Position numbers and translations under genes: made by a program
Part shown: in pieces, positions 30,032 to 32,864 of the stretch
Position numbering within the stretch: the first letter of the stretch is position 1
Layout of the letters: every line of letters begins with the position of its first letter
The notes under the pieces: model-generated
What the model was told of the DNA's origin: nothing
The model's database searches: none
What the model saw: only the letters and a program-made list of their open reading frames with translations
Source of the DNA: an uncultured Verrucomicrobiota bacterium
GTDB taxonomy: Bacteria > Verrucomicrobiota > Kiritimatiellia > RFP12 > UBA1067
Length of the DNA: 32,864 nt
Reading direction: 5' to 3'
NCBI GenBank assembly: GCA_945834475.1
Contig: CAMAHK010000017.1
Coordinates: forward strand, 1-32,864

Positions 30032-30068
30032 TACCCGTATCGCCGCCCGCCTCGGGCGCGGTGGGTAA
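30032..30068 (+). other. large GC stem-loop after nifJ
   Basis: Outer arms TTACCC (30032-30037) and GGGTAA (30063-30068) enclose an inner CGCCCG-CCT-CGGGCG hairpin (30045-30059). It starts 8 nt after the nifJ stop and has no U-run, so it is more likely an mRNA 3' stabiliser or part of a two-hairpin terminator than a terminator alone. Confidence 0.45.
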
Positions 30069-30076
30069 CACAAAAA

Positions 30077-30104
30077 GAACCCCCGACCGAAAGGCCGGGG
30101 GTTC
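30077..30104 (-). terminator. terminator-like hairpin with its T-run on the minus strand
   Basis: A 9-bp stem (arms 30077-30085 and 30096-30104) extended by CC/GG closes on a GAAA tetraloop. On the + strand it is followed by CGGCCTT, not a U-run. A run of A at 30072-30076 precedes it, so read on the minus strand it is a textbook intrinsic terminator. It may act in both directions, but no minus-strand gene in the window needs it. Confidence 0.5.
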
Positions 30105-30110
30105 GGCCTT

Positions 30111-30128
30111 GGATCAGAGGGATGATCC
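30111..30128 (+). other. small hairpin before nadE
   Basis: GGATCA and TGATCC form a perfect 6-bp stem around a 6-nt loop, 22 nt before the nadE start. No clear promoter or Shine-Dalgarno sequence is visible between it and the ATG, so how nadE is transcribed is not evident. Confidence 0.35.
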
Positions 30129-30150
30129 GTGCTCAAGGTTAAGTGTTGAT

Positions 30151-31161
30151 ATGAAAAAAGAAGTTGGCTCACTTGCGACGCATCGTGCCTATCTGGGGAA
30201 ACCCGCGAAGGACGGGAGCGTCGTTCCCTTTGTCATGAATCCCGCGAAGGTCTTCGCGACACAAGTCGCCGGCCTTACGAAGCGCCTGAAGGCAATCAAG
30301 TGCTCGCAGGTCGTGATCGGGCTTTCGGGCGGACTCGACTCGACGCTCACGTTGCTCGTCGCTGACGCGGCGTTCGACAAGCTCAGGCTCGACAAGAAGG
30401 GCATTCACGTCTTCACGATGCCAGGCTTCGGCACGACAAAGCGCACGAAGGGGAATGCCGAGCTTCTCGCGGAGGGGCTCGGGCTTACGATCGAGACGAT
30501 TTCGATCATCAAGGCGTGCAAGCAGCATTTCAAGGATATCGGGCACGACGGCGTGACGACCGACGTCACCTACGAGAACGCGCAGGCCCGCATGCGGACG
30601 ATGATCCTCATGGACAAGGCGAACATGGTGAACGGCATCGTGCTCGGCACGGGCGACCTCTCGGAGATCGCGCTCGGCTGGTGCACTTACAACGGCGATC
30701 ACATGGCGATGTTCGGCGTCAACTCGGGCGTCCCGAAGACGGTGATCCGCAAGGTCTGCGCCTGGTGGTGTAATGAGGTGGAGAAAAGAGGTGGAGAGCG
30801 GATGACGTCCGCACAGGCCATTCGCGACATCATCGCGACGCCGGTGTCGCCCGAGCTGAAGAAGGGACAGGTCACGGAGGACACGATCGGTCCGTACGAG
30901 CTTCACGACTTCTTTCTCTGGAACTTCATCGTCAACGAGATGGGGCCGAAGCGGCTCGTCATCGAGGCGCTCAAGTACTTTGAGGGCGCCTTCGATCCCG
31001 AGACCGTGGGCAAGACGTGTCAGACGTTCTTCCGTCGATTCTTCACACAGGCATTCAAGCGCAATTGTGCGCCGGACGGCGTGAAGGTCTTCCCGTTCGA
31101 GCTCTCGCTTCACGACTGGTGGATCCCCTCTGATCTCGGCCTCGTCAAGCTGCATGGATGA
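30151..31161 (+). CDS. nadE: NAD+ synthase, synthetase domain only
   Basis: 336 aa from ATG 30151. It adenylates and amidates nicotinic acid adenine dinucleotide to NAD+. IGLSGGLDSTLTLL contains the PP-loop (Ser59 to Ser64) for ATP. MPGFGTTKRTKGNAELLAEG, KQHFKDIGHD, VTYENAQARMRTMILMD and GTGDLSEIALGWCTYNGDHM are signatures of the synthetase half of the long, glutamine-dependent NadE. Those enzymes are about 640-680 aa with an N-terminal nitrilase-like amidase that makes ammonia, and this domain is missing. The protein begins only about 55 residues before the PP-loop, and 30024-30150 shows no amidase remnant. It may use free ammonia or an amidase encoded elsewhere. The last 8 nt overlap the next ORF. 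Confidence 0.92.
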   Translation: MKKEVGSLATHRAYLGKPAKDGSVVPFVMNPAKVFATQVAGLTKRLKAIKCSQVVIGLSGGLDSTLTLLVADAAFDKLRLDKKGIHVFTMPGFGTTKRTKGNAELLAEGLGLTIETISIIKACKQHFKDIGHDGVTTDVTYENAQARMRTMILMDKANMVNGIVLGTGDLSEIALGWCTYNGDHMAMFGVNSGVPKTVIRKVCAWWCNEVEKRGGERMTSAQAIRDIIATPVSPELKKGQVTEDTIGPYELHDFFLWNFIVNEMGPKRLVIEALKYFEGAFDPETVGKTCQTFFRRFFTQAFKRNCAPDGVKVFPFELSLHDWWIPSDLGLVKLHG

Positions 31162-32233
31162 GGGGAATGTCGACGCGAGCGCTGACGCGCTCCGCGATAC
31201 TTCTGCGCGTCCCGGCTTAACGCCGAAACGCTTGGTGTCTGTTACCGTCTCGCGGGAGGCAACGGGGGCGAGGCACACCACTCTAGCGACTTTGCTTCGC
31301 AAAGCGGTCTTCGACCGGTGGATACCTTGCCTCGCCGGAGAGGATGGAGATTCTTCTGAACGACGCGACAGGAGTGTCGCGTCCCCGTTGGGAGCGTCAG
31401 CAACGGGAGCGTCAGCAACGGGAGCGTCAGCAACGGGCGTGTCAGCAATGGGAGCGTCAGCAACGGGCGTGTCAGCAACGGGCGTGTCAGCAACGGGAGC
31501 GTCAGCAACGGGAGCGTCAGCAACGGGGGCGAGGCACTCTTGCCTCGCCGTAAGCGTTTCGGCCGAAGGACGGAACGCGCAGGACTCGCTTCGGGCGGCG
31601 GAGCCGCCGCGTCCGCAAATCCTTCCTCCGCGCTTCTTCGACCCTTCGCGTGCCGTCGTGCGCACGAAGGGCAATCTCCCCCATTGGCAACAGCCCCGCT
31701 GTGCCTGTTTTGTCACCTGGCGTACGGCTGATTCTTTATCGCAGTCAAAACTTGCCGAGCTTGAAGAAGAGCGAATGTTCTGGACTGCAAACCATCCACA
31801 TCCCTGGGATTCCGATACGCGCCGCGAATACAATCGTCTGTTCGAAGGTCGCATTCAGGAATGGCTTGACGCCGGTGGCGGTGCCTGTGTCCTTCGTCAA
31901 GTTCTTCTGCGTCGAAAGGTCGAAGATGTCTTGCGAAGATTCGACGGCAGTCGATATCAGCTTTACGCGCTCGTGGTGATGCCGAATCACGTGCACGTCC
32001 TTTTCATGCCGCTCGGCGAACAGTCCGTACGCGATATCGTTCGCACGTGGAAGGGTGTGTCGGCGCGAGCCGTGAATCAGGCGTTGGGCGCAACGGGCGA
32101 CTTTTGGCAAAAGGAATCGTGGGATCATCTGGTGCGGAGCGAAAGGCAGTTTGCGAAATTTGTACGCTACATTCGGACGAATGATCCGACGATTGCCTAC
32201 AGTGTTTATGGAGAGGGGACTGAAGATGAATAA
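31154..32233 (+). CDS. REP-associated tyrosine transposase (RAYT) with repeat-derived N-terminus
   Basis: 359 aa if started at ATG 31154, which overlaps the nadE stop by 8 nt. Only residues about 156-350 are transposase: PPRFFDPSRAVV, GNLPHWQQPRCACFVTWRTA, the HxH metal motif in VVMPNHVHVLF (His279, His281), DFWQKESWDHLVRSERQFAK and candidate catalytic Tyr339 in VRYIRTNDP. This is the Y1/HUH family that processes REP-type hairpins in other bacteria. Residues about 68-155 are translated from the composite repeat at 31342-31617, and residues before that come from older repeat remnants. No ATG lies near the natural family start (just before PPRFF); a GTG at about residue 167 would truncate it. 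The repeat has therefore either fused to the protein or removed its start. The stop overlaps murD by 8 nt. Confidence 0.8.
   Translation: MDEGNVDASADALRDTSARPGLTPKRLVSVTVSREATGARHTTLATLLRKAVFDRWIPCLAGEDGDSSERRDRSVASPLGASATGASATGASATGVSAMGASATGVSATGVSATGASATGASATGARHSCLAVSVSAEGRNAQDSLRAAEPPRPQILPPRFFDPSRAVVRTKGNLPHWQQPRCACFVTWRTADSLSQSKLAELEEERMFWTANHPHPWDSDTRREYNRLFEGRIQEWLDAGGGACVLRQVLLRRKVEDVLRRFDGSRYQLYALVVMPNHVHVLFMPLGEQSVRDIVRTWKGVSARAVNQALGATGDFWQKESWDHLVRSERQFAKFVRYIRTNDPTIAYSVYGEGTEDE
31202..31336 (+). repeat. diverged and inverted remnants of the composite repeat
   Basis: 31202-31236 matches, in reverse orientation and with roughly 75% identity by eye, the segment of the intact copy around the motif GCCGAAACGCTT. 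Next comes a broken right hairpin: GGCGAGGCA (31267-31275) and TGCCTCGCC (31328-31336), the arms of hairpin B in the intact copies, here separated by 52 nt holding two small perfect hairpins (31290-31304 and 31305-31317, each with a TTC loop). This indicates repeated insertion at one site. Confidence 0.5.
31342..31617 (+). repeat. composite palindromic element, copy 1 (in the transposase ORF)
   Basis: Order: purine-rich lead-in; hairpin A at 31362-31383 (9-bp perfect stem, arms GACGCGACA/TGTCGCGTC, loop GGAG); nine 15-bp units; hairpin B at 31528-31549 (9-bp perfect stem, arms GGCGAGGCA/TGCCTCGCC, loop CTCT); an inner palindrome TTCGGCCGAA; hairpin C at 31595-31610 (GCGGCG/CGCCGC). The last 92 nt (31526-31617) are identical to copy 2 except one C/T in the loop of hairpin C. 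The frame used reads SVASPLG, then (GASAT)n, then GARHSCLAVSVSAEGRNAQD. Confidence 0.85.
31391..31525 (+). repeat. 15-bp tandem repeat, 9 units
   Basis: The unit GGAGCGTCAGCAACG is repeated nine times without indels, with GGAGCG/GGCGTG variants and one ACG-to-ATG change. It encodes (G-A/V-S-A-T)n. Unit length is a multiple of three, so copy-number change keeps the frame. It is a tandem array without spacers. Confidence 0.95.
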
Positions 32234-32864
32234 GACGGCGTTGGTGATGGGCTACGGCCGCAGCGGCAAGGCCGCGGAGGCGTTGCTCAAGGATTTGGGG
32301 TATGAGGTTGTGGTGTGGGATAAGGAGACGGAGGGAGGTTTTGAACGACGCGACAAGAGTGTCGCGTCCCCGTTGGGCGCGTCAGCATCGGGGGCGTCAG
32401 CAACGGGCGTGTCAGCAACGGGGGCGAGGCACTCTTGCCTCGCCGTAAGCGTTTCGGCCGAAGGACGGAACGCGCAGGACTCGCTTCGGGCGGCGGAGTC
32501 GCCGCGTCCGCAGTTCGATTTCGCCGTGGTCTCGCCGGGGATTCCGCTGACGCATCCGTGGTTCGCGGAATGCCGCGCACGCGGCATTCCCGTGAAGAGC
32601 GAATTACAGCTTGGCTGCGAGGAACTGAAGCGACGCGGATGGAAGCTCCTGGCCGTGACGGGCTCGAAGGGCAAGTCGAGCGTCGTCAAGGTCGTCGCCG
32701 ATGCGATCAACCGCGCGGGCGGACACGCCGTCGCCTGTGGCAACTATGGTGTCCCGGTCTGTGAGGTGGCGCTCGGGAAGATGGAGGTTTGTTCTGTTGC
32801 ACGCGACAGGAGTGTCGCGTCCCATTTGGGTGTGGAGGGAGGCTCTGAACGACGCGACAAGAGT
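32226..32864 (+). CDS. murD: UDP-N-acetylmuramoylalanine--D-glutamate ligase, 5' part, interrupted in frame by repeats
   Basis: The frame is open from ATG 32226 to the window end (213 codons), so the 3' part is missing. MurD adds D-glutamate to UDP-MurNAc-L-Ala in cytoplasmic peptidoglycan synthesis. MNKTALVMGYGRSGKAAEALL with VVVWDKET is the N-terminal Rossmann-like domain. FDFAVVSPGIPLTHPWF (97-113) is the second family signature. LAVTGSKGKSSVVKVVADA contains the ATP loop with Lys150, and GNYGVPVCEVALG follows. Residues about 37-96 are not MurD-like: they are the translated composite element, inserted in the surface loop between WDKET and FDFAVVSPG. After ALGKM a second insert begins (RDRSVASHLG, then ERRDKS). 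The ATP-loop Lys lies about 35 residues later than in E. coli MurD (Lys115). A GGAGAGGGG ribosome-binding site precedes the ATG. Confidence 0.85.
   Translation, partial: MNKTALVMGYGRSGKAAEALLKDLGYEVVVWDKETEGGFERRDKSVASPLGASASGASATGVSATGARHSCLAVSVSAEGRNAQDSLRAAESPRPQFDFAVVSPGIPLTHPWFAECRARGIPVKSELQLGCEELKRRGWKLLAVTGSKGKSSVVKVVADAINRAGGHAVACGNYGVPVCEVALGKMEVCSVARDRSVASHLGVEGGSERRDKS
32331..32512 (+). repeat. composite palindromic element, copy 2 (inside murD)
   Basis: Same order as copy 1: hairpin A at 32347-32368 (arms GACGCGACA/TGTCGCGTC, loop AGAG), three 15-bp units at 32376-32420, hairpin B at 32423-32444 (loop CTCT) and hairpin C at 32490-32505 (loop GAGT). It is read in the same frame as in the transposase ORF, giving ERRDKSVASPLG, then GARHSCLAVSVSAEGRNAQD and SLRAAESPRPQ. 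Confidence 0.9.
32376..32420 (+). repeat. 15-bp tandem repeat, 3 units
   Basis: The same unit as at 31391-31525 but only three copies (GASAS, GASAT, GVSAT), inside murD. The difference in unit number from copy 1 contrasts with the near-identical flanking 92 nt. Confidence 0.95.
32783..32830 (+). repeat. composite element, left-end copy 3 (inside murD)
   Basis: A lead-in (GGAGGTTTGTTCTG) and hairpin A at 32801-32820 (8-bp stem ACGCGACA/TGTCGCGT, loop GGAG), then CCCATTTGGG instead of the repeat array. It encodes ARDRSVASHLG in the murD frame. Hairpins B and C are absent, so it is a truncated copy or is followed by nested insertion of copy 4. Confidence 0.75.
32833..32864 (+). repeat. composite element, left-end copy 4, cut by the window end
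   Basis: GGAGGGAGGCTCTGAACGAC leads into the left arm GACGCGACA (32851-32859), loop AGAG and the first T of the right arm, where the window stops. It is again in the murD frame (ERRDKS). Confidence 0.75.

Follow-up and report, generated by a model that had tools for sequence, protein, structure and literature searches.

A RAYT gene between nadE and murD

The 3' end of the window (the whole 32,864-nt stretch of DNA analyzed, from an uncultured Verrucomicrobiota bacterium) carries a gene for a REP-associated tyrosine transposase (RAYT) between nadE and murD, with hairpins of a REP family on both sides of it and in-frame inserts in murD itself:

30061..31161, + strand: nadE (NAD synthase), C-terminal part, its stop overlapping the ATG at 31154 (Pfam/NCBIfam)
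31154..32233, + strand: 359-aa open frame that starts at the nadE-overlapping ATG, crosses the REP array and ends with the RAYT
31362..31383, + strand: REP hairpin type A(+), upstream of RAYT
31390..31531, + strand: 9.5 copies of a 15-nt tandem repeat, lying between the upstream A and B hairpins (TRF)
31528..31549, - strand: REP hairpin type B(-), upstream of RAYT
31550..31617, + strand: long tail block with a GC-rich hairpin; the long form also matches 32445-32512, C114:1-74 and C10:42311-42402
31655..32233, + strand: RAYT, IS200-like HUH/Y1 transposase, start codon uncertain (Pfam, NCBIfam, alignment)
32226..32339, + strand: first part of murD, Rossmann N-terminus (HMM and MAFFT; right edge approximate)
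32340..32512, + strand: first murD insert (insert 1), in frame, of about 59 codons (BLASTP and MAFFT; edges approximate)
32347..32368, + strand: type A(+) REP hairpin of insert 1, giving the peptide RRDKSVASP
32375..32426, + strand: 15-nt tandem array in insert 1, 3.5 copies (TRF)
32423..32444, - strand: type B(-) REP hairpin of insert 1, giving the peptide GARHSCLAV
32513..32782, + strand: second part of murD, with the GSKGKS P-loop (HMM and MAFFT; right edge approximate)
32783..32864, + strand: second murD insert (insert 2), truncated where the contig ends, with an A hairpin at 32801-32820 and a second, truncated A copy

The RAYT product scores above the Pfam cut-off for Y1_Tnp (33.8 bits; cut-off 23) and below the curated NCBIfam cut-off for REP_Tyr_transpos (60.2 bits; cut-off 80). 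In an alignment with two relatives, HVH (residues 112-114 of the translated piece) and Y172 are invariant in all three sequences; we take these to be the catalytic residues. Inverted REPs flank the gene: B(-) at 31528-31549 on its 5' side and, on its 3' side, A(+) at 32347-32368, which already lies inside murD. The RAYT gene ends about 0.1 kb before insert 1, its 3' end overlapping the murD start by 8 nt. The overlaps on both sides, nadE-RAYT and RAYT-murD, suggest translational coupling. In a relative without RAYT (L080) the nadE stop directly overlaps the murD start, and the ATG that opens the RAYT frame thus occupies the position of the murD start in that relative. Among the murD loci of 12 relatives nadE lies beside murD in one, the fetched flanks of the others often being too short to reach nadE.

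One scan of genome contigs gave RAYT relatives at 55% (L211), 48% (L212) and 47% (L213), each with its own hairpins on both sides; the L211 stem, GACGCGAC, is identical to that of the A hairpin, and an RGAG loop occurs in one of the L213 hairpins. Nine 26-nt hairpins, alternating between two types, flank the L212 relative (L212:3552-5057, in a Verrucomicrobia MAG, UBA1731); their CCCTTGGG-like tail is close to the CCCGTTGGG tail of the present family. For four other RAYT-like genes in the same genome as the window (L205-L208, on C1, C11, C8 and C18), the 3.2-3.4 kb fetched contained neither type of hairpin; A/B hairpins thus adjoin only one of the genome's five RAYT-like genes, a point against the preferred reading given below.

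Inserts in murD

The sequence-only reading of this DNA had placed a composite palindromic element, in frame, between two murD motifs. The frame is indeed open throughout: from the murD start at 32226 it runs through WDKETEGG, about 59 extra codons at about 32340-32512, and FDFAVVSPG, and the fragment matches NCBIfam TIGR01087 (E 1.4e-24). In a search of the whole genome, the murD HMM matches on either side of insert 1, weakly for profile positions 2-37 (E 0.09) and strongly for 56-148 (E 1.5e-20). BLASTP aligns 181 query residues with 121 of the best relative, L079, making the query 60 aa longer, and MAFFT places the insert between the same two motifs, in a variable stretch that leaves its exact edges approximate. 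None of the 11 relatives aligned has it (12 were given; L072 fell under the E-value cut-off).

The hairpins (32347-32368 and 32423-32444) and the 15-nt array that had been described within the insert are real: it consists of an inverted REP hairpin doublet (GACGCGACARGAGTGTCGCGTC, GGCGAGGCARGAGTGCCTCGCC) with the tail CCCGTTG, plus the array and a GC-rich tail. The element is thus palindromic and apparently selfish, as proposed, and appears to work like the Rickettsia palindromic elements, presumably being translated; it is not unique, being a RAYT-associated REP doublet of a large genome-wide family. A search of the genome with a 187-nt query gave 71 matches at E<=0.001, although a single element often accounts for several of these. 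With this and a 96% identity across 138 nt between insert 1 and 31480-31617, upstream of the RAYT gene, chance does not explain the insert. The long form represented by this 138-nt block has probably spread locally, as three of its four genome matches lie within the murD locus. The neighboring RAYT, a second murD insert near 32783-32864 and the size of the family go beyond the original description.

A surface-loop position had also been proposed, and is weakly favored by an AF2 model of MurD: most of residues 38-90 (the insert) have pLDDT below 50, against averages of 63-94, mostly 78-94, for the flanking framework blocks. The best structure matches of the model are MurD (3lk7 at 2.4e-8). The loop that follows beta-2 of MurD is presumably near the UDP-substrate site.

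Insert 2 contains two A cores spaced 51 nt, and the contig (C17) ends within a REP. Another contig, C114, opens partway through a further copy of the element, read in the element frame that the murD insert uses, and resumes MurD from profile position 273; a third insert is therefore probably present in murD, on C114. Between the two contigs 82 aa of the MurD middle (measured on L079) are absent from the assembly, which is 85.5% complete, and no further murD piece was found among 11 HMM matches in the genome, nor was an intact second murD found there. Either a short repeat-bounded contig is absent, with a third insert, or there is a central deletion. The assembled murD is thus partial and has two inserts or more, and any function of this MurD is putative.

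Contig ends within repeats, at the end of C17 and the start of C114, are also what might be expected if the murD insert were an assembly chimera. This is scarcely credible for insert 1, which has murD sequence to its left and right well within C17; the same pattern recurs at many independent loci away from contig ends, with 67 intragenic clusters across many contigs.

A large REP family, mostly within open frames

The A hairpin can be written GACGCGACA-RGAG-TGTCGCGTC and the B hairpin GGCGAGGCA-RGAG-TGCCTCGCC, with variants at the stem base. Both have CCCGTTG on the 3' side and a weakly conserved G-rich, then T-rich stretch on the 5' side. A GTAG (or GYAG/GTGG) head beside the stem is absent from the position profile of 139 hairpins; the stem itself ends CGTC in many A copies and CGCC in many B copies. 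The window and 60 further regions of the genome (L081-L140), 339 kb in all, hold 142 REP-like hairpins; the loops AGAG, GGAG and GGAA account for 142 of the 211 perfect 7+4+7 hairpins in the same sequences. Clusters of two hairpins are inverted pairs without exception (41 of 41; 33 tail-to-tail, 8 head-to-head), with spacers that vary between copies.

With up to 3 mismatches, the A core gave strand counts of 135/137 in this genome vs 5/4 for the reversed pattern, each good site being counted on both strands at this setting because the core is nearly palindromic. With up to 2 mismatches there are 121 sites vs 0-8 in each of 57 relatives, and with a looser pattern 144 vs 0-8; a generic REP pattern showed no excess in the 57 relatives (0-8 each; controls 0-9). 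The family thus comprises about 120-135 A-type sites genome-wide and is near background in the 34 congeners searched: an expansion not seen in any of these.

Some hairpins are also arranged in the same orientation. The nine tandem spacings measured between such hairpins, which come from five clusters, are all divisible by three, although most such tandems lie within genes, making this no test of the element itself. Head-to-tail arrays have units of 42, 48 or 51 nt (L093, L095, L102, L118, L121 and window 32803/32854), all multiples of three, including the L121 array, which was called intergenic. A built-in multiple-of-three element length was considered and rejected, the spacings of intragenic tail-to-tail doublets falling into classes 0, 1 and 2 in 7, 11 and 14 of 32 cases. 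Adaptive stop-freedom was likewise rejected: the 29-nt hairpin unit is stop-free in all six frames, and so are 20% of its shuffles.

How are these hairpins placed relative to genes? Clusters were scored in 59 sequences from the genome (the window and L081-L138), chosen around 100 listed A-core sites and sites matched by the 187-nt query, with random-site baselines from the same regions; 89 clusters were found, of which 7 were too near a sequence end, leaving 82 scorable. Coding potential was scored by a codon model that had been trained on long ORFs and gave the right frame to 956 of 1,018 150-nt windows from the same ORFs. The gene caller put 67 of the 82 within a single unbroken gene, over 60 nt from its ends (such gene bodies make up 79% of the sequence), although it masks hairpins and may extend a gene through one into non-coding DNA. 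A stricter test requires a coding signal on both sides: it was passed by 63 of the 82 clusters (61 in one run, through score rounding) vs 3,407 of 4,721 random sites (72%; p=0.39), and placement relative to genes is therefore not distinguishable from random. By local flanks, a stricter criterion again, two coding flanks shared one open frame at 39 of 82 clusters vs 1,941 of 3,612 random sites in a comparable test.

A broken frame should leave genes of one strand to either side of the cluster. This arrangement was found at 5 of the 82 clusters at most, and the four candidates examined are all at open-frame ends. The L137 cluster is ambiguous, two scripts having placed it on different strands.

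The genes concerned include those for GatB, MetRS, ClpX, MutS, PriA, RsmA, IspE, MurC, UvrA and PurL, and further Mfd, RibD and ArgC. NCBIfam models match in one stretch across the insert in GatB (4-518, model 2-479 of 481), MetG (24-746, model 3-675 of 676), MutS (59-863, model 1-793 of 793), FolD, RecD2, GlgB, RsmA, PurL and XseA; in CarB, ClpX, ProA, IspE and UvrA the match to the best model is split into two or more. Aligned with orthologues, GatB has an insert of 26 aa and FolD one of 11 aa, each absent from 13 of 13 relatives; that of XseA is 13 aa as measured against 8 of 11 relatives, all 11 being without it. In GatB the insert falls between two stretches matched to a PDB chain (query 5-352 and 383-514, chain 4-338 and 341-472); the AF2 model of this protein was too poor for use (mean pLDDT 48.6). 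The ClpX insert is in a loop that varies among relatives, its size not measurable from the alignment. MurC (L118:1630-3645, on C53) has three in-frame REP hairpins, at about residues 436 to 478 of a 672-aa stop-to-stop frame; with murD, two consecutive cell-wall-pathway ligases are thus interrupted. Several of the hosts are genes for DNA repair or replication restart (RecD2, MutS, PriA, Mfd, UvrA, XseA and DinB; L087, L091, L104, L113, L134, L135 and the ambiguous L137).

Might these simply be decaying pseudogenes, their frames open by chance in GC-rich, stop-poor DNA? The ready stop-freedom of the hairpin unit, equaled by 20% of its shuffles, is in keeping with this, as are the missing murD middle in an 85.5% complete MAG and two of four ambiguous clusters (L085, L124), where one frame stays open to either side of the hairpin but has a stop immediately next to it. 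With doublet spacings spread over all three classes, however, chance should often break the frame, yet 67 of 82 clusters lie within one open gene, with at most 5 possible breaks; in addition, GatB, FolD, ClpX and XseA have one match each in the genome at the thresholds used. Decay is accordingly improbable.

All six frames of the A hairpin are in use in the 67 intragenic clusters, to unequal extents (sense 23, 7 and 9; antisense 12, 4 and 25; p=3e-5 over the full 80, p=2e-4 when each cluster contributes a single hairpin): the frames giving RRDKSVASP-type and GDATLLSR-type peptides account for 48 of 80, and the two that encode cysteine for 11. For the B hairpin frame bias is not significant (p=0.44 for all, 0.10 when each cluster contributes one), and cysteine frames are not scarce (11 of 31). 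The A bias fits selection on the peptide, as it would an insertion phase bias; B gives no support.

Removal of the inserts after transcription, or their being skipped by ribosomes, as with introns or translational bypass elements, would make frame, stop-freedom and frame choice irrelevant. The strong hairpins, the conserved ends and the very many conserved genes affected would suit such a process, yet 67 of 82 clusters are in open frames, the A frames are uneven and the inserts differ in length (11, 13, 26 and about 59 aa). Rfam gave no match up to E 0.1 in 31100-32864. Taken together, this makes removal or bypass highly improbable.

The reading preferred here, with a probability of about 0.87, is that the inserts are non-autonomous mobile elements, RAYT-associated, REPIN-like doublets that insert without regard to genes, those out of frame being lost and those in frame kept and translated. 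The RAYT would cut and copy REP hairpins as single strands, and insertions would land anywhere, those breaking a needed gene being lost; frame-preserving ones would persist, translated as extra, mostly flexible peptides, and tandem arrays in some of them might later expand by slippage in steps of three. On the gene and frame assignments above, the hairpins have entered dozens of genes besides murD, often indispensable ones, and many proteins of this bacterium appear to carry short translated pieces of selfish DNA.

Purging by itself would predict fewer copies in genes. If two thirds of genic insertions were lost through frameshifts and intergenic ones were neutral, about 46% of clusters should be intragenic, and the 63 of 82 seen exceed this (p=2e-8). 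The model takes intergenic insertions as unpurged, an assumption that may be wrong, and the excess is for this reason left unexplained. A variant in which the family has no avoidance of genes at all, either targeting coding or transcribed DNA or favoring frame-preserving outcomes during insertion or repair, with most copies inside proteins and the peptide selected via frame choice, seems unlikely, if less so than the other alternatives.

On the preferred reading, the genome resembles a natural insertion-scanning experiment: about three quarters of the scorable clusters are in frame in genes, many of them for core enzymes, mapping where these appear to tolerate 10-60 extra residues. It allows the filtering of insertions by frame and by peptide to be measured, and it offers a RAYT paired with REPs whose tag is not GTAG.

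Relation to known REP systems

REPs are named for their extragenic position. In the REP/REPIN-RAYT systems of E. coli, Pseudomonas and Stenotrophomonas, as here, short hairpins form inverted doublets in a species-specific family of more than 100 copies, and the RAYT has flanking hairpins; those systems have a GTAG/GTGG head, whereas the present hairpins have none, with the CCCGTTG tail and RGAG loop instead. A RAYT gene flanked by two inverted REPs is described in PMC2817692. For P. fluorescens SBW25, PMC3116915 gives 14 of 1,067 occurrences of the commonest REP 16-mers as overlapping genes, in contrast to 63 of 82 clusters here by the strict test.

Close precedents are given in PMC3733652, presumably by Di Nocera and co-workers, which describes REPs inside ORFs of several species, most of them in Opitutus terrae and Rickettsia conorii, others in Thauera and elsewhere, and many in replication or repair genes such as uvrA; DNA-repair hosts are thus common to those REPs and the present family. 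Intragenic REPs are reported there as singlets, dimers and groups, dimers and groups encoding 20-30 aa and larger clusters 43-82 aa. In the same account, Opitutus and Thauera REPs are mostly intergenic and have GTAG or CGTC tags, whereas here 67 of 82 scorable clusters are intragenic and there is no GTAG beside the stem.

As described in PMC10969869 and PMC3733652, Rickettsia palindromic elements are in-frame palindromes in many unrelated genes, and gene calls, NCBIfam matches and orthologue comparisons point to the same here. RPE-4 and RPE-6 are CGTC REPs and, according to PMC3733652, apparently lack a dedicated transposase; a RAYT is present here. Literature searches found no paper on such repeats in Kiritimatiellota, nor on such a tag combined with a RAYT and mostly intragenic clusters. 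Intragenic REPs are already known, from Rickettsia and Opitutus, and the present case is of that kind, unusual in extent: what sets it apart is a different tag, a RAYT in place, and most scorable clusters in genes.
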